Positions 13,327 to 46,822 of a stretch of 64,000 bases of DNA are shown here, piece after piece. Numbering within the stretch: position 1 is the first letter of the stretch; each line of letters starts with the position of its first letter. Origin of the DNA: Dyella halodurans (GTDB taxonomy: Bacteria > Pseudomonadota > Gammaproteobacteria > Xanthomonadales > Rhodanobacteraceae); assembly GCF_026283925.1 (NCBI RefSeq), contig NZ_JAPDPF010000004.1:62001-126000 (forward strand). The letters are read 5' to 3'. The notes below the pieces were generated by a model, which saw nothing but the letters and a program-made list of their open reading frames with translations, was not told the DNA's origin and made no database searches. Made by a program: the position numbers and the translations under genes.

Positions 13327-13327
13327 C

Positions 13328-13957: not shown

Positions 13958-13976
13958 GCCATCGGCTACCTTGTTG

Positions 13977-14129: not shown

Positions 14130-14134
14130 AGGCC

Positions 14135-15889: not shown

Positions 15890-15891
15890 CG

Positions 15892-16044
15892 TTACGGGCT
15901 CGCGCCGCTGGCCGACCGCATCGGCCGCGGCTTCGTTGGCACTTCGTGGTGAGTCAGAACGGCGCTACTCCGGACATGTTTTGCCATGTCGGTAAGTGCG
16001 GCAGGCACGCGAAAAGGTTGCGCGAAGCCGCCACGCTGCTTCAT
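15892..16044 (-). CDS. Possible 50-residue basic peptide preceding the exporter (candidate precursor)
   Basis: A 50-codon frame from ATG 16044 to TAA 15894-15892 fills the space between the HprK-like kinase gene and the ABC exporter gene, stopping two bases before the exporter ATG. The peptide starts MKQRGGFAQPFRVP, is basic and Ser/Pro/Arg-rich toward its end (…KPRPMRSASGASP) and has no cysteine and no signal peptide. The ribosome binding site is weak (TTTGGGC). Tight coupling to the exporter supports a real gene; the short length and mixed codon use do not. It could be a precursor or chaperone-like peptide, or simply a leader frame for translational coupling. Confidence 0.35.
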   Translation of the reverse strand: MKQRGGFAQPFRVPAALTDMAKHVRSSAVLTHHEVPTKPRPMRSASGASP

Positions 16045-16132
16045 TTGTTGCCCAAAGCGCAACCGAGCCGGAGCAGCGGGCTACTGCGTCTTGCCAGCCC
16101 GCGGGCCCTGCGCGGTGGTGAGATCGGCGGCA

Positions 16133-17380: not shown

Positions 17381-17470
17381 TTCCAGTCAACGTCGATCGT
17401 TGGATCCGGTACGCCGGCCCGACGCCCATGCGCTGCCACAGCTTGCCCACGGCTCACGAGACCTTTTGCG

Positions 17471-20177: not shown

Positions 20178-20220
20178 CGCCTGCTTCGTGGTTCGGCAGG
20201 CATCCGGAGGGCGATGGGTG

Positions 20221-30964: not shown

Positions 30965-31908
30965 GCTCCCTCCGCCAGATGCAGGGCGGCCCTCAGCTTG
31001 ATCCTGGTGGTCACGACCAGGGACAAGTAGACCAGGAGGTGAAACGCGAGTGGCCACAGTCGCCGCTGTAGAAACGAGATCTTGGCGCCGATGAAGTGCG
31101 ACTGCGCCTTGAGCAAGGTGCGATAGGGGTCGCTGAACAGCGGCACCCTGCGCAAGGCCACGCTTTGCGATTCGAGCAGGTTGAGGATCCTGGCCCGAGT
31201 GTCGCGCGTCCTGCTCAGGTTCGAACTGTGCAGGCGATACGCACAGACACAGACGTCGATGAAGCCGATCGCATCATGCGATGCCAGGCGCAGGAAGAAA
31301 TCCCAGTCATCAATGCGCAGGCTCTCGTTCCACCCCGCGACCGTTTCCAGTGAGCGCTTGCGAATCAGCGCCACCGGACCTCCGATCGCCCAGTGGCTGA
31401 TGACCGCCAGACGGATGCCTTCGTCGGACTGATACAGGCCCTTATTCGCGTGGTGCAGGTCGCACATGCCACTGTCAAACAGCTTCCTGCCGTCCTGATC
31501 GATCACCACCGAATCGCCGATCACCGCCCACTTGCGTGGGTGTTCGAGCAAGTAGTCCACCTGCGCATCGAGCCCGCCGGGCAGCAGATAGTCGTCGCTG
31601 GCGCCGAGCCGCAGGAATTCCCCATGGGCGCGCGCGGCCAGTTCATTCATGGTCGCGGCAATGCCGCGGTTGTCCCGGCGTACGTATTCAATCGGTATCT
31701 CTTCGCGATGCTGGTCGATCCATTCGGCGATCCGCTCACCGGTCCCGTCGGTCGATCCATCATCGATGATGACGAGCTCCTTGGCCTCATACGGATCTTC
31801 AAGCACGCTATCGAGGCAGCGCTTCACGAAACGCTCATGGTTGAACGCGGGTATCAGCACCGACACCAGGGGCGTCGGCGTGATTCTTATCGGTAATCCG
31901 CCGACCAT
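30961..31908 (-). CDS. GT2-family glycosyltransferase
   Basis: A 315-residue GT-A enzyme. It has SVLIPAFNHERFVKRCLDSVL, IIDDGSTDGT, the metal site RLGASDDYLLPGG, and the acceptor region ESLRIDDWDFFLRLASHDAIGF. A hydrophobic stretch near the C-terminus (LWPLAFHLLVYLSLVV) may attach it to the membrane. The start at 31908 overlaps the end of the wzx-like gene by 22 bases. It likely adds a sugar to the repeat unit, and belongs to the Wzx/Wzy operon. Confidence 0.9.
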   Translation of the reverse strand: MVGGLPIRITPTPLVSVLIPAFNHERFVKRCLDSVLEDPYEAKELVIIDDGSTDGTGERIAEWIDQHREEIPIEYVRRDNRGIAATMNELAARAHGEFLRLGASDDYLLPGGLDAQVDYLLEHPRKWAVIGDSVVIDQDGRKLFDSGMCDLHHANKGLYQSDEGIRLAVISHWAIGGPVALIRKRSLETVAGWNESLRIDDWDFFLRLASHDAIGFIDVCVCAYRLHSSNLSRTRDTRARILNLLESQSVALRRVPLFSDPYRTLLKAQSHFIGAKISFLQRRLWPLAFHLLVYLSLVVTTRIKLRAALHLAEGA

Positions 31909-33161
31909 TGCTCCAACCCTCCGAGATAGCGGCGCGCGACCACGATATTGAAAACGAGGTAGAGGAAATAATTCGTGGAGAACGCGTAGATCGCCCCCAC
32001 CAGACCGAAATGCGCGGTGAACGCATAGACCAGCACGAGATAGCTGGCCGCGAAGACGCATTCGGAAATGATGAAAAGCCGCGTCATGGCCTTGGCCAGC
32101 ATGAGATAGGAAAGGACGAATGACGCGATCTTGATGACGTCGCCAACCAGCTGTGGACCGTACAGTTCGTTGGCCTGCGAGAACTCGCCGCTGAACAGCA
32201 GGAGCGTCACCCAGGTCCGCAGGACGTAGACCGCCAGCGCCAGGCCCATCACCAGGGGCAGCAGGAAGCGGTAGGCATGGCGTAGTTCGAGCATCAGCGA
32301 TGCCCGGTCATTGATCGACGCGAGTTTCGGCAGATAGTAGATATTGATGGCGGATGTAATGAACAGCAGGTAGGCGTCGGACACCTTGCTCACGGCCTGC
32401 CAGTAACCCACATGCTGCCAGCCAAAGGCGCCGACGAGATGGTCGCGTACCGCGATATTGACCAGGGGCGGCAACAGGGCGGAGGTGAGCGTCATGGTCG
32501 AGAACGCGGCGAGCCGCGTGACCATTTCACGATCAAAGCGCACCCGCAGCATGCTGCGCTTGAAGTACGGGCTCCTCCACCACATCGGCAGACCAACCGC
32601 CAGCCATAGCGTCTGCCCCAGCACCAGGGCGAGCAGCGCCCCTTCCAGACTCAGCCACTGCGAAAGCCACACCACCATCGCGATATTGAGCGCGGAGCCG
32701 GCGATCTGGACGAGAGCGAGGCGGCGCACGTCCATGAAGCCATTGATGACGGCAATGATGTAGTTGGCCAAGGCGATGCCCAATTGGGCCACGGCGAGCA
32801 CACGGATCAGGGCCGCATAGCGAGCATCGCCGAGCAGCCACTGCGCCATCTGCGTGCTGAACAGCAAGGTGGCGGCGCCGATCACCAGCGAGGCGCCCAG
32901 CGCATACCACAGTGCCGCGCCCAGCAGCCGCGCCAGGCGTTGCGCGTCGTCACGGTATTCCGCCACATACTTGACCACGCCAGCCCCTATGCCGCCTCCG
33001 GCAAAAACCGCGAGCAGCGACATCAGGCTCATGAACTGACCCAGCTTGCCGACGCCCTCCGGCCCGGCGAACGAGGCCACCAGCTTGACCACGACCAGCC
33101 CGGCCAGCAGGCGCGCGCCGGTGGAGGCGGCCGTATAAAAGCTGGCGCGTGCGATGCTCAT
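31887..33161 (-). CDS. Wzx-type flippase
   Basis: A 424-residue integral membrane protein with about twelve helices, beginning with [40 protein letters not shown]. This is the Polysacc_synt fold of Wzx flippases, which move lipid-linked repeat units across the inner membrane. Loops are short and the C-terminal helices are separated by basic turns. The ATG at 33161 overlaps the aminotransferase stop (ATGA); the frame's earlier start only adds three residues. Because the sugar repeat built upstream probably includes a 3-acylamino-3,6-dideoxyhexose, this would be its transporter. Confidence 0.88.
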
Positions 33162-34270
33162 GGCGAGCACCCGAATGCCCGGCAGGCCTGGATCACCTGC
33201 TCCACCGCGTCGCCGGCCAAGGTTGGCCCGATCGGAAGGCTAAGCACCTCGCGATGCAGTCGGTCCGTCAGGGGCAGATGGATCCCCTGCAACATCGGGT
33301 ACGCCGGCTGCAGGTGCGGCGGTACGGGGTAATGCACCTGGCTCTGGATGCCGCGAGCCCGTAAATGGCGTTGCAGCGCATCGCGCTGGGAACTGCGCAC
33401 GACGAAAAGATGCCAGACATGCTGCTCTTCCTGCACCACCTCGGGAAGCAGGATGTCGGGCTGACGGATCGCCTCGCGATAGCGTCGCGCCACCAGGCGG
33501 CGCCTCTGGATATCCTCGTCCAGATACTTCAGCTTCACGCGCAGCATGGCCGCCTGCATCTCGTCGAGTCGCGAATTCACACCGCGAAACGGATGGTGAT
33601 ACTTCACGTCCGAGCCGTAATTGCGCAGTGCCGCCACGCGCGCGGCAAGTGCTGCGTCGTCGGTGACCACCGCGCCGCCATCGCCCAGGGCGCCAAGGTT
33701 CTTGGTGGGAAAAAAGCTGAAGCCAGCAGCATCCCCGAAGGAACCGGCCCTGCGCCCCTCTCTTATGGCGCCGTGCGCCTGCGCCGCGTCCTCGATCAGC
33801 AGCAAGCCATGCTGCTTGGCCACCGCAGCCAGGCCAGGCATGTCGGCCAGCTGGCCATACAGGTGCACGGCCATGATCGCGCGCGTCCGTGGGCCGATGG
33901 CGTCCTTCAGACGCGCCGGATCGATGTTGAATGTCGCAGGATCCGGCTCGACCGGAACGGGCACCAAGCGGTTCTCGGTGATGGCAAGAAAGCTCGCAAT
34001 GAAGGTGTTGCCCGGAACAAGGATCTCATCACCTTCTTCCAGCGCCCCCAGCTCCTTGTAGCCGCGCAGGATAAGTGACAACGCATCCAGGCCGTTGCCT
34101 ACGCCCACGGCATGACGGACGCCGCAGTAAGCGGCGAACTCCTGCTCGAAGGCAGCGACCTCCTCGCCAAGGATGTACCAGCCGGAATCGATGACTCGCG
34201 CGGCCGCCGCCTTCAGCTCGTCGGCATAGCGCGCATTCAACTCCCTCAGGTTCAGGAATGGCACGTCCAT
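33158..34270 (-). CDS. DegT/DnrJ-family sugar 3-aminotransferase (FdtB/QdtB-like)
   Basis: A 370-residue PLP enzyme. It opens with [19 protein letters not shown] and has the PLP-binding region [10 protein letters not shown], then [18 protein letters not shown] with the Schiff-base lysine in TKN. Later come [27 protein letters not shown] and HVWHLFVV. The sequence style matches aminotransferases making dTDP-3-amino-3,6-dideoxyhexoses (FdtB for Fuc3N, QdtB for Qui3N). It fits the FdtA-like isomerase and acyltransferase at 36-37 kb. The ATG at 34270 overlaps the stop of the previous gene (TGATG). Confidence 0.88.
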
Positions 34271-35199
34271 CACAGCGCCCATTCGTAGAAGTCGTGCACC
34301 ACGCCGCGCGCCCCGAAATACTCCTTCTGCGTGATCAGGCCGCCATTCAGCGCCTTTCCTTCCTGCTCGGTGGAAATGCCAAGGGAAAAGTAATGCCGGC
34401 TGGCATAGAGCTCGATCAGCTCGGCCAGCAGCAGGTTCAGCGCATTCACGCGCCTGCCCTCTTCCGACGCCGCCAGGTACTGGGTGTGCACGCCACGGCC
34501 GAAGTCGTAGACGACGGCCCCGGCCAGCAATTCATCGCCACGTCGCGCATCGTAAAGCAGGATCTGCCGCGGAAAGCGCGCCTGCAGCAAACGCAGCTCG
34601 TCCAGGCTGTGGGTAGGCACCGCGTCGTGCTTGCACAACACCTCGGAAAGCAGGGCGTGGAAGCCTGCCAGGTCGCTGCTCGCCTGCACTTGCAGGCCAG
34701 CCTTTCTTGCCTTGTTGACCGCGCGACGGCGTCCGTCCGTGAAGCAAAAGGATTCCTGTAACGCGATGATCGAGGAAATGTCGCGCCGCTTCAGGCGCGC
34801 ACCGAGTCGATGCAACGCGTAGAGATCCTCATCCGCCGGATACGCGTGAAAAACGTGGGGGACGGCCTTGTAGATCACGCTATCCATGCCTAGCGCGCGG
34901 TAAATCTCGCCGATCGACTCGAACAGGGAAAGCGTCGATTCGGCACGCAATGCCTGCGTGCTGATGAGGCCGGCATAGGTGAGGCCGCCGTGGCTCACCA
35001 CCGTCTTGCCCAGAACATGCGCGGGAAAGACCGCCACGGGCTCGCCGTGGCGTTCAACCATGAGCGAGCGGTCGGCAAAGCGGTGGGCGTGATAGTCCAT
35101 ATAGCCCCGCTGATGCAGCAATACGCCGTTGCGCGATTGCTCGACGACGGCGTCCCAGGCACCCGCGTCCGCCGGCACGTAAGGCCTAACCGCAAGCAC
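34270..35199 (-). CDS. GNAT/FemAB-like acyltransferase
   Basis: A 309-residue protein that looks like a double-GNAT (FemAB or BioF2-like) acyltransferase: [39 protein letters not shown] in the first half and [24 protein letters not shown]…[15 protein letters not shown] in the second. Such enzymes transfer an acyl or aminoacyl group to a sugar amine or peptide. GTG 35199 is chosen for its GGAGG seven bases upstream and overlap with the preceding gene; the longer frame adds a poor N-terminus. In this operon it probably decorates a sugar amino group, but the acyl donor cannot be read from sequence. Confidence 0.75.
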
Positions 35200-36139
35200 G
35201 AATGCCTCCTTCGACCTGCGTCTGCGATGCTTCGGCGACACCGAAGCCGTCCAGCCCCATGTCATTGCCGTTGTAGAACATCAGGAATTTATCGCGCTGC
35301 CGAATCAGCGCCGGATAGCAGATGACCCGCGAGTCCCATCCGCTGGACGACAATGAAAGACCCAGCGCCTCATCATGGCGCTCCCAGTGCACGCCGTCGG
35401 CACTGTACGCGAGCCCTGGAAAATACTCCCCGGTGACATTGCCCCGCGTGAAGTACATGACGTAACCGCTGCCCATGCGATAGACGCGTGGACGGCCGAT
35501 CCGGTATTCGCTGCCACGCGGGCGCAGGCACACGACATCATCCCGCGGGATAGCCGCAAGATCGTCCGTCTCCACGTAACGAATATGGTAACGCGGGAAC
35601 GGTTGTCCGCCGATGTATTCCCAGTCGTCGCCAACCGCATACCACAGACGCCATCGACTCCCCTCGCGAATCACCGAATGAACGGCAGCAATGGTGCTCC
35701 GTCCCGGCGCCCGGTCGAGAATCGGGGTTTCCTGAGTTCGCAGAAAGCTTTCACCGCCATCGCGCGAAATCGCCAGGCCGGTGAATGCCAGGAACTTGGC
35801 CTTGGCCACCCGCTGAAAGCCGACGTAGAACATGTGCAGGCCGTCCGCGGCTTCGACGACATCGCCAAGAATCATCCCGTTGTCGTCGAAGCAGCCATCC
35901 CTGCCAAGCTCGATGACCGGCTCTTGGCTCACCCGGACGACGGTCGACGGCTCGTCAGCGCGAACGTCCACATAACCGATACGGCTGACGCCGTCGCCGT
36001 CGCGAAACCCTGCGTACACGCGTATGAGTTGCTCACTGATGCGAAAGGGGGTCGGTGTAAGCGCCGAGTGACGCATCCAGCCGCCCACGCTGCGCTTGGC
36101 CGTGTCGAATACCAGGCCTTTCTTGGTCCAGTCATTCAT
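35186..36139 (-). CDS. Five-bladed beta-propeller glycosidase-like protein (GH43/32-like)
   Basis: A 317-residue protein without a signal peptide. It shows the repeated blade pattern of the GH32/43/68/117 superfamily: FDDNGMILGDVVEAADGLHMFYVGFQ, AISRDGGESFLR, SEYRIGRPRVYRMGSGYVMYFTR, AYSADGVHWERHDEALG and ICYPALIRQRDKFLMFYNGN. The intact acidic triad cannot be confirmed by eye. The absence of export signal and its place in a polysaccharide operon suggest it recognises or trims an intracellular sugar intermediate rather than degrading external polymer. It is followed after six bases by the acetyltransferase. Confidence 0.7.
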   Translation of the reverse strand: MNDWTKKGLVFDTAKRSVGGWMRHSALTPTPFRISEQLIRVYAGFRDGDGVSRIGYVDVRADEPSTVVRVSQEPVIELGRDGCFDDNGMILGDVVEAADGLHMFYVGFQRVAKAKFLAFTGLAISRDGGESFLRTQETPILDRAPGRSTIAAVHSVIREGSRWRLWYAVGDDWEYIGGQPFPRYHIRYVETDDLAAIPRDDVVCLRPRGSEYRIGRPRVYRMGSGYVMYFTRGNVTGEYFPGLAYSADGVHWERHDEALGLSLSSSGWDSRVICYPALIRQRDKFLMFYNGNDMGLDGFGVAEASQTQVEGGIRACG

Positions 36140-36145
36140 CGCCCC

Positions 36146-36811
36146 TCATAGCCTCACATCGAAACTGGAGCGATCGGGGACCGCATGCGCGGGGGAACCG
36201 ACATAGACCCTCCCAGGCTCGGTGTCGCGCGTCACCAGCGCCCCGGCACCGATCACATTGTCGCTGGCGATCCTGACGTGATCGTTGAAGGTGGTGTTGA
36301 CCCCGATGAAGCTGCTGTCACCGATCTCGCAATATCCGGAGATGACCGCGTGCGACGCCACGAACACATGGTCCTGCACGACCGTGCGATGCCCCACATG
36401 GTTGCCGCTCCATAGCACGCAGTTGTTGCCAATGCGAACGAAGGGCTGGATGACATTGTTCTCGAAGATGAAGCTGTTCTCGCCGATCTGCGCATTGCGC
36501 CAGACAAAGGCGTGTGAACTGACGTACGTCGCGATCCGATAGCCCCTGCTCTTCGCATCCAGGTAGAAGCGCGTGCGCAGCCGGTTGAGCTGGCTCGCCG
36601 GTATCGCAACGAATACCGCGAAGTTCGCCGGGGGGTAGAGTGCCGGGAGGTCCTCGTAGGCCACCACGGGTCGATCGGCGAGTGTCGGCTGCGTAAGATA
36701 CTTTTGCTCGACGCTGAAGGCGACGACGTCGTAAGCGCTGTCGTGCTCGAAATATTCGCAGGCAATCTGTGCGAACTCACCAGCACCTACGATCACTAGA
36801 GGCCCTGGCAT
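36146..36811 (-). CDS. Sugar O/N-acyltransferase, left-handed beta-helix (PglD/FdtC-like)
   Basis: A 221-residue protein with an N-terminal Rossmann-like domain (LVIVGAGEFAQIACEYFEHDSAYDVVAF) and a C-terminal left-handed parallel beta-helix of hexapeptide repeats (ENNVIQPFVRIGNNCVLWSGNHVGHRTVVQDHVFVASHAVISGYCEIGDSSFIGVN). This matches PglD/NeuD/FdtC-type acyltransferases. The probable reaction is N-acylation of a dTDP-3-amino-3,6-dideoxyhexose with acetyl-CoA. The start overlaps the ketoisomerase gene by 16 bases, supporting consecutive steps. Confidence 0.87.
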   Translation of the reverse strand: MPGPLVIVGAGEFAQIACEYFEHDSAYDVVAFSVEQKYLTQPTLADRPVVAYEDLPALYPPANFAVFVAIPASQLNRLRTRFYLDAKSRGYRIATYVSSHAFVWRNAQIGENSFIFENNVIQPFVRIGNNCVLWSGNHVGHRTVVQDHVFVASHAVISGYCEIGDSSFIGVNTTFNDHVRIASDNVIGAGALVTRDTEPGRVYVGSPAHAVPDRSSFDVRL

Positions 36812-37233
36812 GCTGGCACTTCCGCCTGGTACGCGCCGCTGTGCACCTCGCGCAGGAAAACATCGTAGTCCGTGATGTAATCCGCCGGATCGTAGAACTG
36901 GTCAGCCAGGACCATCAGGACGCAGTCCTGGGTGAAATCGTACATCTCTCGCCACACCATGCGGCGCAACAACAGGCCTTGCGATGGATCGTCGAGCACG
37001 ACCTTGCAGGGTCCGCTGCCGTCGTCCAAAAGGAAGGTGACGGAGCCGCGCACGGTCACTGCCAGTTGATTCAGGTTGCGATGAGCGTGCATGCCACGGT
37101 GCACATCGCATTTGGTGGAGAACAGGTAGTACACGCGCCGAATGTCGAACGGCACGTTGAGGTCTTTCTCAAGCGAAATAAGCATGCCGCGATCGTCGCC
37201 ATGCATCTGCAATTGGATTCGCTCGATTTCCAT
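36796..37233 (-). CDS. fdtA: dTDP-6-deoxyhexose 3,4-ketoisomerase (FdtA/QdtA, WxcM-like cupin)
   Basis: A 145-residue cupin of the FdtA/QdtA/WxcM-C-terminal family. Key features are RGMLISLEKDLNVPFDIRRVYY, the histidine motif RGMHAHRNLNQ, a beta-barrel core (VRGSVTFLLDDG) and MVWREMYDFTQDCVLMVLADQFYDPADYI. These enzymes move the keto group of dTDP-4-keto-6-deoxyglucose from C4 to C3, the first step to Fuc3N or Qui3N; which of the two cannot be decided by eye. It is the first gene of the 15-gene leftward operon. The upstream dTDP-glucose steps (RmlA/RmlB) are not in this window. Confidence 0.85.
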   Translation of the reverse strand: MEIERIQLQMHGDDRGMLISLEKDLNVPFDIRRVYYLFSTKCDVHRGMHAHRNLNQLAVTVRGSVTFLLDDGSGPCKVVLDDPSQGLLLRRMVWREMYDFTQDCVLMVLADQFYDPADYITDYDVFLREVHSGAYQAEVPACQGL

Positions 37234-37412
37234 ATTCCAGGGCCGGCTTGTGGATTCTTAACGCGATCAACTTTCCCTTGGGTGCCATCTGGCTGGTGAA
37301 AGGTTGCATCGAAAGATCGGACCTTGATAATGAGTGCTGCGCCAAAGCCGTCCGGCACCACGCTGGAGGTGCGAGCTACATCTGGCACCGCGCGACCACC
37401 CGTGGACCGACG
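37234..37412. other. 179-base intergenic region upstream of the polysaccharide operon
   Basis: This stretch lies between the cytochrome gene and fdtA, both on the minus strand. It should hold the promoter of the 15-gene polysaccharide operon. I see no obvious terminator, riboswitch or strong sigma-70 hexamer pair; a few AT-rich words (GTTGATCGCGTTAAGAATCC on the minus strand) are the only suggestive part. No gene is apparent in it. Confidence 0.4.
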
Positions 37413-38123
37413 TCACCAGCTGCTGAGGTAAGCCGACAGCGCCTGTATGTCGTCGTCACTCAGCGTCTGCGCCACGCCATGCATCACCCTTGCATTGCTG
37501 TTGCCAGCGCGCGTGCCGCGCTTGAAGTCGCCCAGTTGCTTGGTGAGATACAGGCCGGACTGGCCACGCAGATGGGGAAACGTCGCCCATGGTGGTTGCG
37601 GCGCAGCGCTTGGATGCGGCTGCGGACCGAGGCCCGCCGGCCCGTGGCAAGCCTGGCAGGGTGGGATGCCGCGTGCCGGGTCGCCAGCCCGATACAACTG
37701 TGCACCACGCGAGCTGGCGTCGCCCTTTCCCGCCGGTTTCGGCGGCAGCGTGGCGTAGTAGCTGGCCAGGTTGCGCATATCGTCGTCAGTCAAGGTCGCG
37801 GCCTGGCCCGTCATCACCGGATCCTTGCGCTGGCCATCATGGAACTCCTTCAACTGTACATAGAGATAGCTTGCCGATTGCCCCGCCAGATGGGGAAAGT
37901 TCGGTGCGATCGCCACACCCTGCGGGCCATGACAGGCCAGGCACACCGCGGTCTTGGCGGCGCCGGCCTTGGCATCGCCGCTGATCGGGTGCATGCGACG
38001 CAGATCCTGCACGCTCGGCGGCGCGGCCGACGTGCTGGCCGCTGGCGCCTCGGCCGCAACGTCAAGCACGACGGTGGACATCAGCAGGCAAACCCACAGG
38101 AGAGGGGTGCGATGCGTCATCAC
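37413..38123 (-). CDS. Diheme cytochrome c (c4-like)
   Basis: A 236-residue exported protein with a signal peptide (cleavage probably after DVAA) and two cytochrome c domains. The heme-attachment motifs are CLACH and CQACH, and each half repeats the layout SASYLYVQLKEFHDGQRKDPVMTGQAATLTDDDM / SGLYLTKQLGDFKRGTRAGNSNARVMHGVAQTLSDDDI, as in cytochrome c4. Two methionines (PVM, RVM) could be the distal heme ligands. Such proteins shuttle electrons in the periplasm. It directly follows the MtrB-like barrel gene by five bases, so it may link the conduit to the respiratory chain. Confidence 0.93.
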   Translation of the reverse strand: MMTHRTPLLWVCLLMSTVVLDVAAEAPAASTSAAPPSVQDLRRMHPISGDAKAGAAKTAVCLACHGPQGVAIAPNFPHLAGQSASYLYVQLKEFHDGQRKDPVMTGQAATLTDDDMRNLASYYATLPPKPAGKGDASSRGAQLYRAGDPARGIPPCQACHGPAGLGPQPHPSAAPQPPWATFPHLRGQSGLYLTKQLGDFKRGTRAGNSNARVMHGVAQTLSDDDIQALSAYLSSW

Positions 38124-38128
38124 GGCTC

Positions 38129-40744
38129 CTACAACTTCAGGTTCAACATGACACCGACCAGACTCGCGTTGTAATGCAGCTGGCCACCCTTGTCGGTATA
38201 GAGGCGGTGGTCATAGACGAGTGTGTTGTTCAGTCCCAGATAATGCCAGTCGCTGAAGGCGCCGGTTTCATAGCGGCCGTAGAGGCGTACACCGACATTG
38301 CTGGTGACGCGAAAGCTCAGGCCCATGTCGAGCGTATTGGTCCTGTATTTGTCGTCGGGAAAGCCTTGGTTGGAGGCGGCGACGCTGGCGGCATCGCGGA
38401 AGGCCAGCGCACCGATGGTCGCGTAGTTGTAGCCGACATGGCCGACCGAGCCGGTATAGTTGTAGCTGAGGTCGGCACGCACCCGGCCAAAGTCGTGACT
38501 GAAGGTGAGCCCGGCATTGCGATTGGTTTCGCTGTCGTACTCCCACCATTGATTCGCATACGGATAAAACGGGCCACCGAGGTTGGGGTTGGTTTGGCCG
38601 ATACTGCCGTAGATTTTTCCGTTGTCGACAGAGTCCGCATCGTTGACGTTGGCGATGCCCATGCGCGAGCCTTCCACCCCGAGGTAACCGTTCATCGTGG
38701 TCTTCGGGCTGGGCTGCCAATCCCACTGCAGGGTGGCGCCGGTCGTCCTGGTGCTCTGCCGCCCGATCAGCGCGTCGTAGTTGTCACGATTGCCGTAGAA
38801 CGTGGCCGAGATCGTGGCCGATTCGCCCAGGGGATGGGTGACGATCAGGCGTGCCTTGCTTTCCGTCCGATTGGACAGGTCGTACATGCGCATGTCGGCG
38901 ACGGTGTAAGCCGGCAAGCCCACGGCCGGCGTGACGAAGCCGGGAAGCGATTGCGAATAGAACGGCACGTACGGATCGTAGTTGTACTGATCGCCGTCTC
39001 GCCTGGCGTATTCCCAGCTCAGCCGTATGGTGGCTCCCACGACATCGCGACTGACCCAGGCCAACTTGAAGCGCTGGTCATCGACGCGATTGCGCTCGCG
39101 ATACTTCGGCTCGTTGCGGTCATAGGTGTAGGTAACGCCGAGCGAGGTCTTATGGCTCAGTTGCCAGTCGGCGCCCAACTCAAGCACCGCATCGGTATAG
39201 CTGACGGGCACGTTGCGTACAGGAACGCTGTTCGATGCATACAGTGGGTTGTTCGGGTCGAAGAAGCCGGTTTGGCCAGGCACCACGGTGCCTTGCGAGC
39301 CGTTCTCAGAGATGAAACCGTATTGACCGGTGAGCGGGTTGTAGGCCAGGTAGCGAGTCTTGTCGTCCTCGCGATACCAGCGCAGGCCGGCATGCCAGCC
39401 GAACGCCTGGTTGGGATGAAAGGTGGCCCGGGCATCGAGTAGGCCGGTGTCGATACGCGCATTCGCACTGGGTTCGGACAGCGCCGCCGTGGTGTTCCAG
39501 TTCGCGCACGGAAACGTATAGTTCGCCGTTGGCGAAATGTAGACACCACCAGTACCGGTGCAGTTGGTCGGCGGCAGCAGCGCGTCGTTCTGGCGCATCG
39601 TTCCCCACGCCCCGGCCACCGTGAGCTGCCCGTTCCACTTCAGCTCGCGCGACAAGTCCAGTCGCACATTGTGATAGTCGTTGTTCGGCTCCAGCGAGAA
39701 CTGGCCAGTCGTGATGTTGGCTACCTGCGGCACGCCGACCACGTTGGACAAGGCAAACGGGCTCTGGAAGTCCAGGTAGTCCTTGTGATTGCGGAAGAAT
39801 GAGCCGTTGTAGGTCGCCAGGAAGTGCCAGACCTTGCCGACATTGCGCAGGCTGAGATTGATATCGGTAGTGCGGAAGTCGATGGGCCGCACCGTCTCCA
39901 GAATGCCGCCGTTGTCGGGGAATGAGTAATTGAAGAACATCGAGCCGCCCCATAGACGCGTGCCCGTGCGCTTCTCGTTGGTGATACCGGCCGAAGCGAT
40001 CCAGTTCTGATACACCACGCCCTCGTAGCTAAGCCCTTCGCGCGTGCGCTTGAGCCCGATGTTGTGCTCGGGCGTGACGGCCGACACGGCCGCCACTTGC
40101 GCCGGCGTGCTCCCGCCGGGGACCAGCGACGGGGGCAAGGTCAGGTTGGTCGTGCCGACACCATTCCAGATCGGGTAGGCGTTGGTCGACACGGTATGCG
40201 GCATGTCGCGGTAGAAGGCCTCGATCCGATAGCTGCCATATTGGCCGGCACGCAGGCGATAGAACTGGTCGTCCGCGCTGAGGTGGTTGCCGCGGAATTC
40301 GACGTATTCGCCGGTCTTCGGATTCCAGAAATTCAGCGCGAGCAGGCCCAAGACCGGTCCGCTGCGCCAGTCGGCGTACTGGCGAAAATACTCGGCGTTG
40401 CGGTCGCCGCCGACATGCAGGTAACCGAATTCGATCTCGCCGTTGTAAAGCCAATCGCCCTGCCCCACCGGTTTGCCCGCATTGACCATGGGCGGATACG
40501 GATAAAGATTGCCGGTGGGCGTACGCAGCATGCCGGCGTGCAGCAGGGACATGCCGTCCGGGTCGGCCGGTTGCAACATCGGGGTCCAGCCAAGCGGATC
40601 GAGTGCATTGCCAAACTGCGTGTCGCCCACGCGCATGGTGTCGCTGGTATCTCCCGCCAGCACGTCCTGCATGCCGCACAGGCCCAGCAGCAGGCTCAAG
40701 GTCAAGACGGTCGGCGTGGTGCGATTTTGCTTCAGCGCAAGCAT
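38129..40744 (-). CDS. MtrB/PioB-family outer-membrane beta-barrel
   Basis: An 871-residue outer-membrane protein with a signal peptide and long alternating beta strands rich in Tyr, Trp and Asn. It opens after the signal with GDTSDTMRVGDTQFGNALDPLGWTPML and has the repeated short-strand design of MtrB/PioB barrels (YRLRAGQYGSYRIEAFYRDMPHTVS, LRLSWEYARRDGDQYNYDPYVPF, ending in VGVMLNLKL). MtrB/PioB barrels insulate a decaheme cytochrome through the outer membrane. The decaheme gene is 12 bases upstream and a c4-like cytochrome is downstream, so the set is a classic porin-cytochrome conduit. Confidence 0.9.
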   Translation of the reverse strand: MLALKQNRTTPTVLTLSLLLGLCGMQDVLAGDTSDTMRVGDTQFGNALDPLGWTPMLQPADPDGMSLLHAGMLRTPTGNLYPYPPMVNAGKPVGQGDWLYNGEIEFGYLHVGGDRNAEYFRQYADWRSGPVLGLLALNFWNPKTGEYVEFRGNHLSADDQFYRLRAGQYGSYRIEAFYRDMPHTVSTNAYPIWNGVGTTNLTLPPSLVPGGSTPAQVAAVSAVTPEHNIGLKRTREGLSYEGVVYQNWIASAGITNEKRTGTRLWGGSMFFNYSFPDNGGILETVRPIDFRTTDINLSLRNVGKVWHFLATYNGSFFRNHKDYLDFQSPFALSNVVGVPQVANITTGQFSLEPNNDYHNVRLDLSRELKWNGQLTVAGAWGTMRQNDALLPPTNCTGTGGVYISPTANYTFPCANWNTTAALSEPSANARIDTGLLDARATFHPNQAFGWHAGLRWYREDDKTRYLAYNPLTGQYGFISENGSQGTVVPGQTGFFDPNNPLYASNSVPVRNVPVSYTDAVLELGADWQLSHKTSLGVTYTYDRNEPKYRERNRVDDQRFKLAWVSRDVVGATIRLSWEYARRDGDQYNYDPYVPFYSQSLPGFVTPAVGLPAYTVADMRMYDLSNRTESKARLIVTHPLGESATISATFYGNRDNYDALIGRQSTRTTGATLQWDWQPSPKTTMNGYLGVEGSRMGIANVNDADSVDNGKIYGSIGQTNPNLGGPFYPYANQWWEYDSETNRNAGLTFSHDFGRVRADLSYNYTGSVGHVGYNYATIGALAFRDAASVAASNQGFPDDKYRTNTLDMGLSFRVTSNVGVRLYGRYETGAFSDWHYLGLNNTLVYDHRLYTDKGGQLHYNASLVGVMLNLKL

Positions 40745-40756
40745 CGTCCTCCTCCG

Positions 40757-41896
40757 TCACTCGTGGAACTTCGGTCCGGAAGGATTGTTCGAGCCATGGA
40801 TATTGCTGTGGCAGGTCAGGCAGCCGCGCCCAATGATCCTCTCGTCCGGATGCGGGCCGGTGCCGAGCCCGGCCGGCGTCTGCAAATCATTCGGGTGCAA
40901 CGTCATGGTGTGGCACTGCTGACACAGCATCGGGATCGGCGCGACCAGCAGGGTCTGCTGGTTGGAGCCGTGCACGTCGTGGCAATTGAGGCAGTTCTCG
41001 CGCACCGGTGCGTGCTCGAACAGGAACGGCCCGCGCTTCTCGGCGTGGCAGGTGTAGCAGGTTTCATTGACCGTATCGGTTTTCAGCAGCGGCTTGGTGA
41101 TGCTGCCGTGCGGGTTGTGGCAGTCGGTGCAGGCCATCTGGCCTTCCGGCAATGGCATGTGCGAGCGACGGTTGAACTTGGCGCGGATGTCTTGATGGCA
41201 GCTCGCACAGACCTCGTTGATCGACGAGGCCGCCAGCAGGCCTTCCGGCGAAAGCCGTGTCATCGGATTGTGGCAATCGCTGCAGGACAGCCCGCGGTTC
41301 TCATGGACAGAGCCAACCCAGTGCTGGCGTGCACCACCGGCATGACAGCCCAGGCACACACCAGCCTGGACTCGCGGCGGCGTCTTCGATTCATGGGTAT
41401 ACGCGATGATCGAACCCGGCGCGGTGGGATCCTTGGCATGCACGGAGCCGGGGCCGTGGCAGGTTTCACAGGCGGCCTGCGGACCGCTGTTGGCCGCGCC
41501 AGCGCGGAACGAGATCACGTGCAGGCTGTGCGAGGCCTGGATGTTTTCCTGCGCGTGACAGGCCACGCAGGTCTTCGCACCAATCGCGTCGGCGTTCGGC
41601 GCCAGCGGGTTGACTGGAATCGGCGCGGCATCGAACGGCGTGGCCGGGCTGTCGCTTACTGGCGCAAGGTGTGGATCTTTTTGACGTGCAGCATTGGCCC
41701 CCATGTCGGTGGCCGGCAGCATTCGCGCGATATCGCCCTGGCTCAGTCCGCTGGAGGCGCTGTGCTGGACATCGGGGGGAGCGGCGCTGCTCGCCGCCGC
41801 CTGCTGGGCCTGCGCGCCAGGCGGGCTCAGCAACATGCCCGCGACGATCAGCATCACACTCAGCAAGGCGGCGCAACACAGCGAAACTAAACGCAT
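40757..41896 (-). CDS. Decaheme c-type cytochrome (DmsE/MtrA-like)
   Basis: A 379-residue exported protein with a signal peptide (residues 1-30) and exactly ten CxxCH heme motifs: CVACH, CETCH, CLGCH, CSDCH, CASCH, CTDCH, CYTCH, CLNCH, CQQCH and CLTCH. The number and spacing match DmsE/MtrA/PioA-type decaheme proteins, which pair with MtrB barrels. The motif pairs separated by about 35 residues are typical for the stacked heme chain. The ATG at 41896 was chosen over the frame's earlier start because the signal peptide begins there. Direction of electron flow, metal oxidation or reduction, cannot be read from the sequence. Confidence 0.95.
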   Translation of the reverse strand: MRLVSLCCAALLSVMLIVAGMLLSPPGAQAQQAAASSAAPPDVQHSASSGLSQGDIARMLPATDMGANAARQKDPHLAPVSDSPATPFDAAPIPVNPLAPNADAIGAKTCVACHAQENIQASHSLHVISFRAGAANSGPQAACETCHGPGSVHAKDPTAPGSIIAYTHESKTPPRVQAGVCLGCHAGGARQHWVGSVHENRGLSCSDCHNPMTRLSPEGLLAASSINEVCASCHQDIRAKFNRRSHMPLPEGQMACTDCHNPHGSITKPLLKTDTVNETCYTCHAEKRGPFLFEHAPVRENCLNCHDVHGSNQQTLLVAPIPMLCQQCHTMTLHPNDLQTPAGLGTGPHPDERIIGRGCLTCHSNIHGSNNPSGPKFHE

Positions 41897-42354
41897 GGCT
41901 TGGAGCCCCTTGGCTATCGCTGACACTCGATCGCTATCGACTTGAACTGCCTGCACGCCAATGCACCCAATGAATGGCGGCCACGCGTGCTGTTAGTGCC
42001 CGCATGGTGCCCTTTGGTTGCGGCAGGCTTCGGGCTTGATCGAAGCGCTGATGGGCAAGTGAAGATCAGCTGCCCAGGCGATCCTGTCGAAGGCGCGAGC
42101 CGGTGGCGTGTCAGGGCCGGGGAATGACTGGGGAGCCTTGGTCGCGCTCTCGGTGCCTAGAAACGTTTCATGGACCACATCCGCTTTGGCCGTTTCGACC
42201 GTATAGTAGCCAGGGGATCTCGACCCGGGTGATGCTTGCGCCCAGGGTGCGAGCGCTGGTCACCGAGACGATGGGCCGATGCTTCGCGACGATTTGCTTA
42301 TAGCCTTTCATCGTAAGTCGCCTGCCGTGGCCTGCGGGTCCCTACGGTGTCGAC
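41897..42354. other. 458-base divergent intergenic region
   Basis: This gap separates the leftward decaheme operon from the rightward TorF-like gene. I find no convincing gene, RNA or terminator. Short frames on both strands lack the codon bias of neighbours. A few GC-palindromic words (GATCTCGACCCGGGTGATGC near 42218) stand out but have no recognised regulator. Promoters for both operons must be here. Confidence 0.4.
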
Positions 42355-43218
42355 ATGTGCCTGGCTGACAGGGTCATGTCGACATGTCGCATCGATGGCG
42401 CAAGGACCCGGTTCCATCATTGCCTCACCATCCTCGGTCGCGGCGTGATCGCGCCGGTCGGTCGCGGTCTTGCCTATGCCTTGCTGCCTGTCGGCATCTG
42501 TCTGGCCACGGCGCCGCATGCCCAGGCGGCAGATTTGAGCGGCACGGTGGCGCTCAGCTCGCAATTGGTGGACAGGGGCCAGGCGGTCACGCCGCAAACG
42601 ACGATTCTGCAAGCCGCAGGGGCCTACGCGTTCGCCAGCGGATGGTCTTTCGGCCTGGCGGCGAGCACCGAAGTGCGTTCGCCGGATCGAATCGCTGAAG
42701 CCCTCGCACAACTTTCACGCCGTTGGTCGCTCGCCTCCGACTGGCAAATGCAGGCAGGCCTGGCCTATTACGACTACCCCGGCAATGCGCAAGCGCGACC
42801 CTATGAACGCGCCGAAGCAACGCTCGACTGGATCTATCGGGACGTGCTCACGTTCGGACTGTCCGCCATTTACGACATGAACGCGGAAGCCCCGCGCCTG
42901 CGCGGTGCAGCGGATGTAAACTTTCATTGGCCCTTGCCGGCGCACTTTGCCTTCTCTGCCGGTGCCGGCGTCACGCGATCTGCTGTTACCCCCTGCAACA
43001 ACGGTGGTCAGGGATGCGCAAGTTCCTACGAATACGGTTGGCCTGCCTACTACGCACCGGTTCCGGCGGAAACCTATGGCTACGGCCATGCCGGCTTGAT
43101 CTGGAGCAAGGGGTCCTGGCACCTGGAACTCGACCGTGTCGTCACCAGCGGGCTCACCCGTCCGCACGGCAGTTTCGAGACGGCGCCCTGGGTAGCCACG
43201 ATTTCCTTCTCATTTTGA
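42355..43218 (+). CDS. TorF-family outer-membrane protein
   Basis: A 287-residue protein with an N-terminal signal-like region (ALLPVGICLATAPHAQAA, cleavage about residue 60) and beta-barrel strands (LSSQLVDRGQAVTPQTTILQAAGAYAFASGWSFGLAASTEV), ending in VATISFSF with a terminal Phe as in many outer-membrane proteins. The opening pattern, with a D-R-G turn, is like TorF-family putative porins. A Cys pair (CNNGGQGC) lies in a loop. Function is unknown. The first 25 residues may not be coded; a later ATG or GTG is possible. Confidence 0.75.
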   Translation: MCLADRVMSTCRIDGARTRFHHCLTILGRGVIAPVGRGLAYALLPVGICLATAPHAQAADLSGTVALSSQLVDRGQAVTPQTTILQAAGAYAFASGWSFGLAASTEVRSPDRIAEALAQLSRRWSLASDWQMQAGLAYYDYPGNAQARPYERAEATLDWIYRDVLTFGLSAIYDMNAEAPRLRGAADVNFHWPLPAHFAFSAGAGVTRSAVTPCNNGGQGCASSYEYGWPAYYAPVPAETYGYGHAGLIWSKGSWHLELDRVVTSGLTRPHGSFETAPWVATISFSF

Positions 43219-43285
43219 CGCCGGGGCAACCCCGTCGCGCTGAAATGGCACTCACTCGTCAAATAGTGACGATTGCGAGGCGGCC

Positions 43286-43870
43286 ATGAACGACGCGGAC
43301 ATCGACGCAGATGCCACGGACCGCATTCTGCTGCAACGCATGGCGAGCGGCGACCGCACTGCGCTGGCGGTGCTGTATCGCAGCTACCACGGCAGGCTGT
43401 GCCGTTTCCTTTCCCGTTTGACGCGGCGAGCCGATGTCATCGAGGAAGTCATCAACGATTGCCTGTGGATCACCTGGCAGAAGGCGGGCAGCTTTCACGG
43501 AGACTCGCGCGTCTCCACCTGGATCATTGGCATCGCCTATCGCTGTGGACTGAAGGCACTGCGACAACATGGCGACGAACCCATGGAGGATGACGCGCTG
43601 TCGGAAGATCGCTTCCTGTCGCATAACCCGGACGAGGATCGCGAGCTGCGCGACTGGCTGGCGAAGGGCTTGAATCGCCTGTCGACGGACCAGCGGGTGG
43701 TGATCGAGCTGGTCTATGGGCTGGGCCACACCCTGGACGATGTCGCGGTCATCATGCAGTGTCCGGTCGGCACTGTGAAGGCGCGCCTGTTCCATGCGCG
43801 CGTCAAGCTGCGCAACACGCTGCCCCTGCTGGCAGGAGAATCGCCCATGCGGAACGAGAGCGCGTCATGA
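43286..43870 (+). CDS. ECF RNA polymerase sigma factor
   Basis: A 194-residue extracytoplasmic-function sigma factor. Region 2 (LYRSYHGRLCRFLSRLTRRADVIEEVINDCLWITWQKAGSF) binds the -10 element and core polymerase; region 4 (LSTDQRVVIELVYGLGHTLDDVAVIMQCPVGTVKARLFHARVKLR) binds the -35. The last four bases overlap the start of the anti-sigma gene, a standard arrangement. A likely self-regulated promoter must lie in the 67 bases upstream, but I see no clear ECF -35/-10 pair. Confidence 0.95.
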   Translation: MNDADIDADATDRILLQRMASGDRTALAVLYRSYHGRLCRFLSRLTRRADVIEEVINDCLWITWQKAGSFHGDSRVSTWIIGIAYRCGLKALRQHGDEPMEDDALSEDRFLSHNPDEDRELRDWLAKGLNRLSTDQRVVIELVYGLGHTLDDVAVIMQCPVGTVKARLFHARVKLRNTLPLLAGESPMRNESAS

Positions 43871-44502
43871 AATCTCCGTCGGATATCGACATGGATTGCG
43901 CGCGGGCCTGGGACGCCATGCCCTGGGTGCTGCAGCACAGCGCCACGCCAGCGCTGGACGAATGGCTCACCCAACACCTGGCCCAATGCGCTTCATGCCG
44001 CGCGGAGTTCGCGCAACAGAGCCGCCTGCGCCGTGCCCTCTCGTTGCCTTCGGATATTCCGCTCGATGCGAATGCCGGATTGAGGCGGTTGCTGGCCAGG
44101 GTCGATGCGCCGGATACCGAGGAGATATCACGGCGTTCGCGCCCCCCGAGCTGGTTGACGCGCGCGCTGGTCGCAGCGGTGTTGGTCCAGGCACTTGGCA
44201 TCGGCGTGCTGGGTGCGAAACTGTGGCTGGAAAGTGCGCACCCGGCTTATCGCACGCTGAGCCAGAACGTGATGCCGGCGCCCGCCGGTGCAATCCATGT
44301 CGTGCCTGACGAGAGCATGAAGGTGGCCGAGTGGAATGCCTTGCTGCACAGCCTGCACCTGCAGGTGGTGGGCGGGCCCAATGACGTCGGCGCGTACACG
44401 GTGGTGCCGGCGGGTGCAGCCGCGACGTCGAACGACATCCTGCAGAAACTGCGCGGGACGCAGGGTATCCGCCTCGCAGAGCCCGTCGCCGTCACCCAAT
44501 GA
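43867..44502 (+). CDS. Membrane-anchored zinc-finger anti-sigma factor
   Basis: A 211-residue protein. The N-terminal zinc-binding motif H-x3-C-x2-C (QHLAQCASC) is the ZAS anti-sigma domain that binds the ECF factor. A single membrane helix (ALVAAVLVQALGIGVLGAKLWL, about 95-117) is followed by a periplasmic domain of about 90 residues. Release of the sigma factor would follow modification or cleavage of this protein. The next gene is a subtilisin-like lipoprotein overlapping by four bases, which suggests it cleaves or is coupled to this sensor. Confidence 0.9.
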   Translation: MKSPSDIDMDCARAWDAMPWVLQHSATPALDEWLTQHLAQCASCRAEFAQQSRLRRALSLPSDIPLDANAGLRRLLARVDAPDTEEISRRSRPPSWLTRALVAAVLVQALGIGVLGAKLWLESAHPAYRTLSQNVMPAPAGAIHVVPDESMKVAEWNALLHSLHLQVVGGPNDVGAYTVVPAGAAATSNDILQKLRGTQGIRLAEPVAVTQ

Positions 44503-45800
44503 AGCATCGCGCCGCCATGTTCGTCCTCGTCGCCGTGATGGCCACGCTGGCCGCTTGCACCCAGCCACGACCGACGGTGCCACAGAGTGACAAGGCCTCG
44601 CTGGAGCACGTCGCCGCGTCGGCCATGGATACCCGGCGCGACATCGTGCTGGCCGTGGCCAATCCGATCGACCCGCCGGCGACGCACGCCGGCTCCAGCC
44701 TGCTTGGCTACACTCCTTCGGGCAACTACGGCGCCGGCCAGCGTGCGGCCTCCACCTTGGCCGCCCTGAAGGAAAGCTACGGGATGCGCGAGATCACCGG
44801 CTGGCCCATCAAGGCGCTGGACCTGTACTGCATCGTGCTGGAGCCGCCGACAGGGATGAGCCGCGAGGCCTTGCTGGCGGTGCTGGCAAAAGACAGCCGC
44901 GTGCAACTCGCGCAGCCGCTGCAGGATTACTCCGTCTATGCGGACGACTCAGCCAACGCGCACCGCTACAACGATCCCTACGTCAACCTGCAACGCGGCT
45001 TCGTCGAGACGGACGCCGCCGTCGCGCACAACCTCAGCCAGGGCGCAGGCATCCATGTCGCCATCATCGACACCGGCGTGGACATGCGGCACCCCGACCT
45101 CAAGGGCAGCATCGGCGAAGCGAAAAACATGGTGGACGCCGACGTCGCGGCGTTCACCTCGGACAGTCATGGCACCGAAGTGGCCGGCATCATCGCTGCG
45201 CTTGGCGACAACCATCAAGGCATCGTGGGCATGGCTCCCAAGGCCGTGCTCGATGTCTACAAGGCATGCTGGTACTCCACCGCGCGCGGCACGGGCGCGC
45301 ATTGCAATACGTTCACCCTGGCAAAGGCGCTGGCAGCCGTCATCGACACCAACACGCGCATCATCAATCTGAGCCTTGGTGGGCCTGAAGATCAACTGCT
45401 CGACATGCTGCTCGCCCAGCTGTTGCGCCAGGGTCGCATTGTCATCGCCGCCCTGCCTCCGCAAGGCAGCGCCGAAGGTTTTCCGAGCGATACGCCCGGC
45501 GTCATCGTAGTCCGCGTGGGCGGCAAGTCGGCGGCGCCCCCCAACGTCATCAGCGCTCCCGGTGGCGACATTCTTACCACCCAGCCGGGCGGCGGCTACG
45601 ACTTCAGCTCCGGCTCGTCCATGGCCGCCGCCCATGTCAGCGGCATCGCGGCGCTCCTGCTCTCGCTCTCGCCCAGGCTGGATGCGCATGCGGTTCACGA
45701 TCTACTGCTGGACACCAGCAAGACATCCGGTGGCGTGTCCCAGGTGAATGCGGCTTCGGCCGTCGAGATGCTGCACGCCCAGCACATGGCTTCGCGATGA
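44499..45800 (+). CDS. Subtilase (S8) lipoprotein
   Basis: A 433-residue protease. A lipoprotein signal ends LAAC with the lipidated Cys at 20, so it sits in the envelope. The catalytic triad is Asp191 (IIDTGVD), His224 (SHGTEVAG) and Ser374 (SGSSMAAAH). The usual oxyanion-hole Asn in AAxGN is not seen; the equivalent stretch reads VIAALPPQGSAEG, which may lower or alter activity. The Pro of GTSMAxPH is Ala. An N-terminal propeptide-like region lies at about 85-150. It is the third gene of the ECF/anti-sigma operon, so it probably processes the anti-sigma factor or another envelope protein. Confidence 0.93.
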   Translation: MKHRAAMFVLVAVMATLAACTQPRPTVPQSDKASLEHVAASAMDTRRDIVLAVANPIDPPATHAGSSLLGYTPSGNYGAGQRAASTLAALKESYGMREITGWPIKALDLYCIVLEPPTGMSREALLAVLAKDSRVQLAQPLQDYSVYADDSANAHRYNDPYVNLQRGFVETDAAVAHNLSQGAGIHVAIIDTGVDMRHPDLKGSIGEAKNMVDADVAAFTSDSHGTEVAGIIAALGDNHQGIVGMAPKAVLDVYKACWYSTARGTGAHCNTFTLAKALAAVIDTNTRIINLSLGGPEDQLLDMLLAQLLRQGRIVIAALPPQGSAEGFPSDTPGVIVVRVGGKSAAPPNVISAPGGDILTTQPGGGYDFSSGSSMAAAHVSGIAALLLSLSPRLDAHAVHDLLLDTSKTSGGVSQVNAASAVEMLHAQHMASR

Positions 45801-45880: not shown

Positions 45881-46822
45881 GTGAAAGGTATCCAGCGCGC
45901 CATTCGCCCCTTGCCCGATGCCACCGCCCAGGCCCAGGCCGTGGTGGAAAGCCTGCCGGACTGGACCGGCATCGAGGGCATCGACCTGCCATTGTGCTTC
46001 GACGCCGGCGACGGCGACGTGCAGCGCTCGCGCGCCCGGGTGGATGCTTTCCTCGGCTGCGCCTGCGCGAAACCAGACACGCTCCGTCGCTCGCACCTGT
46101 ACTCGCTACTGGACGAGCACCTAAGCGGCAACAGCATCGACGACAAGCTGCTCGAGCACCTGCTAAGGGAATTGATGCAAGCGCCCTCGGCCGCGGCCGA
46201 CCATGCGCGCATCGCCATCCGCTTCGAACATTTCGTGCGCCGCGCCGCGTTACGCAGCGACCACCGAGGCTGGCGGGCGTACCCGGTGCTGATCGAGGCG
46301 AGCCTCAGTCCCCGTGGCTTCCGCCTCGAGCTTAGCACCGAGGTCATCTATTCATCGACCTGCCCGGCTTCGGCGGCGCTATCGCGTCAACTCATCCAGC
46401 AACAGTTTGCCGATGATTTCGACGCGGCGGGGTCACTCGATCACGCCAGGATCATGGCGTGGCTGGGAAGCGAACAAGGCATCCTCGCCACACCGCATGC
46501 GCAGCGCAGCAAAGCCAGCCTGCGCGTGCGCTTCGTCGCGGGAGCCCCGCTCCATCTGATCGACCTGCTCGATCGCGTGGAGCAGGCCCTTGGCACGCCG
46601 GTTCAGACGGCCGTCAAGCGCGAGGACGAACAGGCGTTCGCGCTGGCCAACGGCAGCAACCTGATGTTCTGCGAAGATGCAGCGCGGCGCATACAGAACA
46701 CGCTGCTGGCGGATCGACGCATCGCCGAGTTCACGGTCCGGGTCGAGCACTTCGAAAGCCTGCATCCCCATGACGCGGTGGCCTATGTGAGCAGCACCGG
46801 CGGACACCTGCCAGATCCGTAG
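45881..46822 (+). CDS. folE2: GTP cyclohydrolase FolE2 (type IB)
   Basis: A 313-residue enzyme making 7,8-dihydroneopterin triphosphate from GTP for folate and related pterins. It carries the type IB signature: the metal-binding Cys161 in YSSTCPASAALSRQ and His206 in ATPHAQRSKASLRV. In this version about 40 residues separate the Cys and His parts, against about 10 in shorter FolE2 proteins, which is a known longer form. FolE2 works with metals other than zinc and is often expressed when zinc is scarce. It stands alone between the protease operon and an ABC transport operon. Confidence 0.85.
   Translation: MKGIQRAIRPLPDATAQAQAVVESLPDWTGIEGIDLPLCFDAGDGDVQRSRARVDAFLGCACAKPDTLRRSHLYSLLDEHLSGNSIDDKLLEHLLRELMQAPSAAADHARIAIRFEHFVRRAALRSDHRGWRAYPVLIEASLSPRGFRLELSTEVIYSSTCPASAALSRQLIQQQFADDFDAAGSLDHARIMAWLGSEQGILATPHAQRSKASLRVRFVAGAPLHLIDLLDRVEQALGTPVQTAVKREDEQAFALANGSNLMFCEDAARRIQNTLLADRRIAEFTVRVEHFESLHPHDAVAYVSSTGGHLPDP

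Follow-up and report, generated by a model that had tools for sequence, protein, structure and literature searches.

A gene set for a conduit that would carry electrons across the outer membrane was identified in the soil bacterium Dyella halodurans, within a stretch of 64,000 nucleotides that as a whole is called the window here. It encodes a decaheme cytochrome of the MtrA type, an outer-membrane barrel of the MtrB/PioB type and a diheme cytochrome c4. By gene content and conservation, the conduit appears to be real, typical of the family Rhodanobacteraceae and MtoAB/PioAB-like, with a barrel subfamily of its own and c4 as partner. In relatives it can occupy a slot beside genes for an ECF sigma factor, a putative anti-sigma factor and an S8 protease, and the same slot is taken by an unrelated Cyc2-like protein in relatives that lack mtrAB at this place. 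According to our main reading, which we regard as fairly probable, the conduit in the slot would lead electrons inward, with Fe(II) as the best candidate donor, and would be driven by the ECF factor together with a polysaccharide operon via a shared promoter. The novelty lies in the exchangeable slot and in the sigma factor that probably regulates it. The most informative part lay beyond the original prediction, namely the sharing of the slot with a Cyc2-like protein, the ECF/anti-sigma/S8 genes, the promoter-like motif and the carriers beside c4 in other genera.

The conduit genes

The mtrA-like gene (40757..41896, minus strand) encodes 379 amino acids from an ATG with exactly ten CxxCH motifs and matches TIGR03508 with 256.7 bits (cut-off 192.2). 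It is followed after 12 bases by the gene for the mtrB/pioB-like barrel (38129..40744, minus strand, 871 amino acids) and, 5 bases further on, by that for the diheme cytochrome c4 (37413..38123, minus strand, 236 amino acids from a GTG, two CxxCH motifs). The ten motifs, the 871-residue barrel, the diheme cytochrome and the two gaps had been described in the original prediction and were confirmed. The ten motifs in the mtrA frame are not due to chance, because among the window frames of more than 60 residues the c4 frame has two and every other motif-bearing frame has one.

The decaheme protein aligns with the MtrA of the solved MtrCAB complex (6r2q_A, E 6e-62), and the barrel is homologous to the MtrB of this complex. 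Over 56 MtrA rows, 21 His columns are conserved to at least 90%, and 17 of the 21 are also His in the aligned 6r2q stretch. The third protein is homologous to cytochrome c4 structures (6q2u, E 5.5e-40; 1etp, E 2e-32), and a Met is conserved in its relatives in both domains, about +43 and +153 from the first Cys, which suggests His-Met ligation of the c4 hemes. Unoccupied heme motifs had been a concern of the original prediction; from the conserved MtrA His columns and c4 Met positions, heme attachment and ligation look intact.

A second concern was that the barrel might belong with non-MtrB porins. Its match to PF11854 (305 bits, E 1e-90, cut-off 23) argues for the MtrB family, though TIGR03509 is matched with 217 bits, under the cut-off of 240; the protein is a member of a divergent Xanthomonadales subfamily. 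A structure model of the barrel was poor (mean pLDDT 47.7, from a 16-row alignment), and its series of strands would fit a large barrel, weakly. Cys395 and Cys413 are invariant in 18 of 18 aligned barrel sequences and lie in a long loop of this weak model, possibly as a surface disulfide.

The GC content of the locus (0.63, as compared to 0.62-0.65 around it) gives no sign of recent import, although in a quick tree the mtrA of the window nests among sequences of Rhodanobacter and Dyella subtropica. Three loci of the same genus (L054-L056) share 50-51% identity with the window in the barrel and 74-76% in mtrA.

Distribution and conservation

Loci of this kind had been thought less expected in a Xanthomonadales genome. 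This view has to be given up, as an MtrB-family barrel over the PF11854 cut-off is found in 87 of 233 Rhodanobacteraceae genomes and the subfamily is spread through the family. A profile of the subfamily scored above 1000 bits in 5 of 398 genomes of the phylum, all labelled as the same family or order and with the next match at 114 bits, and in 33 of 299 genomes of the order, where five more reached 408-592 bits. All 56 main-clade barrels examined (54 distinct loci) have both mtrA and c4 no more than two genes away, a count that omits four loci repeating counted contigs and 14-15 loci with conventional, intermediate or no barrels. As far as sequences can tell, this conserved unit supports the proposed reading as a conduit. 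Genes in the relatives were taken from a simple gene caller, which missed or mis-started some. At the set-aside loci, c4 was annotated in 0 of 15, and thus the c4 link marks the main clade only. Tandem mtrA-mtrB-c4 sets were observed at two loci (L066 and L067).

The original prediction had proposed a phylogeny of the decaheme protein with MtrA, DmsE, PioA and MtoA. In a quick MtrA tree with many long branches outside, the main-clade sequences group in a single starred clade that is separate from the MtrC-linked sequences. A plasmid search for named MtrA relatives yielded one, on a Photobacterium replicon.

The MtrA-like protein falls in the DmsE-family model TIGR03508, which would fit a DmsEF-like conduit serving an extracellular reductase of another substrate such as DMSO or iodate. 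The same model also takes in MtrA, PioA and MtoA. Against a DmsEF-like role, no molybdopterin oxidoreductase was found among the scanned neighbours, and the constant partner is c4, which makes this explanation very improbable.

A slot shared with a Cyc2-like protein

The cassette of the window is flanked by two gene groups. On one side lies the polysaccharide cluster (28897..37233, minus strand) with wxcM at its head, encoding a WxcM-like protein, a NeuD-like acetyltransferase, a weakly GH32-like protein (below cut-off), a FemAB-like acetyltransferase, a DegT aminotransferase, a flippase, a glycosyltransferase, one protein without assignment and Wzz. On the other side, a series on the plus strand begins with a TorF-family putative porin (42355..43218; TIGR02001 39.7 bits, below the cut-off of 47.15) and an ECF sigma factor (43286..43870; PF08281, PF04542 and, with 63 bits at a cut-off of 42.9, TIGR02937). 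A putative anti-sigma factor follows (43867..44502), which has an H-x3-C-x2-C motif, a hydrophobic stretch recognised by eye, 35.7 bits on NF052375 (below the cut-off of 100) and no Pfam match. The series continues with an S8 subtilase-type protease (44499..45800; PF00082 114.7 bits, lipoprotein-like signal by eye) and FolE2 GTP cyclohydrolase (45881..46822; NF010200 251 bits, cut-off 215), which ends the ECF-S8 series in some relatives.

Over 55 rows, mtrAB-c4 was found beside ECF-S8 upstream on the same strand in 7, upstream on the opposite strand in 3 and downstream on the same strand in 12; the window shows the upstream, inverted arrangement. In Dyella subtropica (L011, ~7602), no ECF gene was called and an antisense-type reading frame is present instead, so that the ECF gene may be a remnant there; mtrAB-c4 still adjoins wxcM.

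In relatives that lack mtrAB at this place, the same flanks surround genes for a monoheme cytochrome, a ~450-residue protein and, in some cases, a b561. The ~450-residue protein carries a single heme motif near its N-terminus and, in 31 of 31 sequences, ends in Phe, which together with the motif described next is expected of a Cyc2-type cytochrome-porin. For Cyc2, which has a fused porin, a signature AXPXFAR[Q/K][T/Y] before CXXCH and a PXL after it are given in an excerpt of an earlier study (PMC8406198). The corresponding A-x-P-x-[Y/F]-A-R-[Q/K]-[T/Y] precedes CxxCH in 29 of the 31 slot proteins (23 Tyr, 6 Phe), the other two being without the motif as called. The protein is named only Cyc2-like, because most sequences have Tyr for the published Phe, PxL occurs within 12 residues after the heme motif in 20 of 31, and no match was found in Pfam, NCBIfam or PDB. 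The open-licence literature does report Cyc2 in Rhodanobacteraceae: in the portions available of three reports, the family is among the main groups of a Cyc2 cluster linked to Acidithiobacillus (PMC10654088), and Cyc2 homologs are mentioned in a Rhodanobacter genome (PMC5566968) and in a genome close to Dyella japonica (PMC7767972).

The genome that contains the window also has a second, distant Cyc2-like gene (L221, contig C11, 156392 on; 31% identity), directly followed by a diheme c4-like gene. This genome thus seems to have two conduits that are unrelated to each other and are both accompanied by a c4.

Both conduits were never found together at the slot. An S8 gene is present in 112 of 233 family genomes, of which, among the matches listed, 60 have a close Cyc2-like gene nearby, 27 have mtrB nearby, none has both and 25 have neither. 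These counts are based on S8 rows with E <1e-80, Cyc2-like genes of at least 58% identity at 3.6 to 9.8 kb from S8, and mtrB within 15 kb; matches to S8 above 1e-80 and to mtrB above 1e-60 were discarded, as were eight mtrB rows whose PF11854 scores marked their barrels as conventional. Again among the matches listed, a close Cyc2-like gene occurs in 61 genomes, and in 60 of them S8 is present and always close by. Weaker Cyc2-like relatives are common and occur in at least 142 of 233 family genomes at 1e-10. A comparison of 58 loci, hand-chosen and many of them for holding mtrB, comprised 31 with a Cyc2-like gene, 22 with mtrB, 5 with neither and 0 with both. As relatedness inflates any p value, label changes were counted on a tree of ECF and S8 from 54 loci, where 7 changes of the Cyc2 label are required and starred branches force at least 5 of them. 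The idea that the ECF-S8 genes are dedicated to mtrAB was rejected, since they are also found next to the Cyc2-like conduit or with no conduit beside them.

Adjacency and exclusion could also be a matter of inherited gene order, if the ECF, anti-sigma, S8 and TorF genes and the conduit do no more than share an insertion hot spot. The 25 genomes in which S8 stands without either conduit nearby would fit such a hot spot, as would the separation of S8 and mtrB, which, of 56 genomes having both, are distant from each other or on separate contigs in 29; the ECF link of mtrAB is therefore not universal. Against a mere hot spot, mtrAB-c4 adjoins ECF-S8 in three arrangements, and the promoter-like motif described below also bears on this explanation.

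A promoter-like motif and a possible regulon

A scan of upstream regions for gapped pairs returned the same pair, GCAACC(TTT)-N-GG[C/T]AC, for ECF, b561 and linked mtrA. In the window, it is found before mtrA (41995..42021, minus strand) as GCAACC-N15-GGCACT, which is also present in L052, before wxcM (37281..37307, minus strand) as GCAACC-N15-GGCACC, and before the ECF sigma gene (43226..43252, plus strand). Up to 250 bases upstream, GCAACC-N15-GG[C/T]AC precedes ECF in 50 of 55, wxcM in 39 of 43 and b561 in 20 of 26 cases, as compared to 2/51 for TorF, 0/57 for S8, 20/817 for other genes and about 1% in shuffled sequences, counts that are optimistic because the same loci served to discover the motif and its pattern was refined once sites had been inspected. 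The window contains 9 sites with at most one mismatch versus 1.6 expected, an expectation that is circular, the pattern having been drawn from window sites; the six further sites are five at 14.0-17.4 kb and one at 28.9 kb.

Not built into this procedure was a contrast among mtrA genes. The motif precedes mtrA in 8 of 9 cases upstream of ECF, the inverted window included, versus 1 of 34 at loci without ECF (1/48 with repeats and conventional types; Fisher p 5e-7 for 8/9 against 1/34, relatedness ignored). This contrast argues against the hot spot. In favour of the hot spot, the motif at a same-strand mtrA that replaces b561 could be a leftover; it may be the old b561 promoter. The inverted mtrA of the window has a site of its own. 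Taken together, we see a small chance that a shared insertion hot spot is the whole explanation. Downstream of the S8 gene, the motif was found before mtrA in 0 of 12 cases; in this position, mtrA would have to be transcribed along with the ECF operon. At the slot-resident locus L055, neither mtrA nor its ECF gene has the motif.

Returning to the main reading, the ECF factor may recognise the motif, because it stands before the ECF gene. GCAACC-N15-GG[C/T]AC would then probably be the promoter from which this factor drives its own operon, the slot-resident conduit and the polysaccharide operon next to it, and the S8 protease perhaps acts on the anti-sigma factor.

Elsewhere in the window, radical SAM, NTP_transf_5, HPr-kinase-like, ABC transporter and methyltransferase genes at 12403-21177 look like a peptide-modification cluster. 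It contains motif sites at 14034, 15995 and 17230 (minus strand) and at 16059 and 17351 (plus strand) and may be in the same regulon as the conduit.

Direction of electron flow

According to the accessible part of a published account, MtrAB cores can run either way, and the direction is unreadable from MtrAB alone (PMC8805035). The original prediction had noted that no MtrC- or CymA-type gene is adjacent, and by the models used this extends to the whole genome. The OmcA/MtrC model TIGR03507 gave 0 matches there, PF09699 matched the mtrA frame only, and PF03264 matched only mtrA and one NapC/NirT protein, so that a dedicated CymA was not found. The sole NapC/NirT protein of the genome sits behind napA and a napB-like gene (below model cut-off). 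At the 54 distinct mtrB-c4 loci, no further called gene encodes a protein with at least four CxxCH motifs, and hence no MtrC is seen there.

Cupredoxin-type or HiPIP carriers accompany the cassette in relatives. At 15 of the 54 loci, a gene for a HiPIP (7/54), a plastocyanin-like protein (9/54) or azurin (3/54) lies within 3 kb, some loci having two kinds; matches to PF01355 and PF00127 confirmed carrier genes on examples. No HiPIP gene was found within 3 kb of the window cassette, which is outside the seven HiPIP loci. Cytochrome c4, HiPIP and azurin usually have a high potential.

We infer inward electron transport from these usually high-potential kinds of partner, from MtrC and CymA not being found, and from the resemblance of the alternative tenant to an iron oxidase. 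The decaheme wire of MtrA inside the MtrB-type barrel would carry electrons across the outer membrane, and c4, probably of high potential, would be the periplasmic partner that takes them from MtrA. Electrons would thus pass from an extracellular donor, with Fe(II) as the best candidate, via MtrA and c4 to an oxidase or the bc1 complex.

There is a real though minor chance that the conduit works in the opposite direction, with c4 or NapC feeding MtrA and electrons leaving the cell to Fe(III), Mn(IV), humics or an electrode, for respiration or redox balancing. Outward flow would agree with the homology of MtrA and MtrB to their MtrCAB counterparts and with the NapC/NirT quinol dehydrogenase in the genome. 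Further, as stated in the accessible part of the same account, PdsA, a periplasmic diheme cytochrome, serves MtrCAB and is found in Mtr pathways elsewhere among the gammaproteobacteria (PMC8805035). However, the cytochrome of the window is a canonical c4 by its match to 6q2u, and its assignment as PdsA was rejected, as it reaches 50 bits on the PdsA model versus 271 bits for a PdsA-like protein of Photobacterium, likewise under the cut-off of 330. Further points against outward flow are that no MtrC/OmcA match and no dedicated CymA were found in the genome, that sister operons contain genes for HiPIP, azurin and plastocyanin-like proteins, and that the alternative in the slot resembles an iron oxidase.

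Work on Sideroxydans, the best-studied Mto system, bears on both directions. In the part of the report available, the high-potential MtoD is proposed to serve an oxidase, and MtoA bound the low-potential PmcA and not MtoD (PMC13390432). The PmcA result counts against a high-potential partner, which weakens the main reading and strengthens the opposite direction.

Implications

A wider reading can be put forward tentatively, as plausible rather than likely: in Rhodanobacteraceae, one ECF regulon would contain an exchangeable conduit, either MtrAB-c4 or Cyc2-like, switched together with a surface polysaccharide for Fe(II) oxidation. If this were true, electron uptake would be made together with a matrix by which iron oxide would be kept away from the cell. 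In the open-licence literature, as covered by titles and abstract openings and with subscription papers outside the scope, no description of the slot exchange or of ECF control of the conduit was found.

The slot is a natural exchange experiment, in which two unrelated outer-membrane conduits replace each other at one locus and a common function becomes testable. For a large family of soil bacteria, it also points to a promoter and a regulator that are candidates for controlling extracellular electron transfer, and the role of Cyc2 and MtrAB homologs in organisms that are not known as iron oxidisers becomes directly testable.

Comparison with known systems

By gene content, the cassette is like MtoAB and PioAB(C) of Sideroxydans and Rhodopseudomonas, with a decaheme MtrA-type cytochrome and an MtrB/PioB barrel and without an outer-surface cytochrome. 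A further likeness to PioABC is the HiPIP, the protein kind of PioC, near 7 of the 54 loci of relatives, the window not being among them. Unlike in MtoAB/PioAB, the barrel forms its own subfamily, c4 is a constant third gene and the genes can lie in an ECF slot.

With the MtrCAB-PdsA-CymA pathway of Shewanella and Vibrio, the cassette shares homologous MtrA and MtrB, but it has no MtrC and no CymA, has c4 in place of PdsA, and its MtrA belongs to a separate starred clade in the quick tree. It differs from DmsEF in that there is no extracellular molybdoenzyme among the scanned neighbours.

In Acidithiobacillus, the route from Cyc2 via Cyc1, a c4, to rusticyanin likewise combines an outer-membrane conduit with a c4, and cupredoxin-type carriers are found in the sister operons of the cassette. 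The conduit itself is different here, since it is MtrAB, unrelated to Cyc2; yet in relatives the slot can instead be taken by a Cyc2-like protein, echoing the Acidithiobacillus route.
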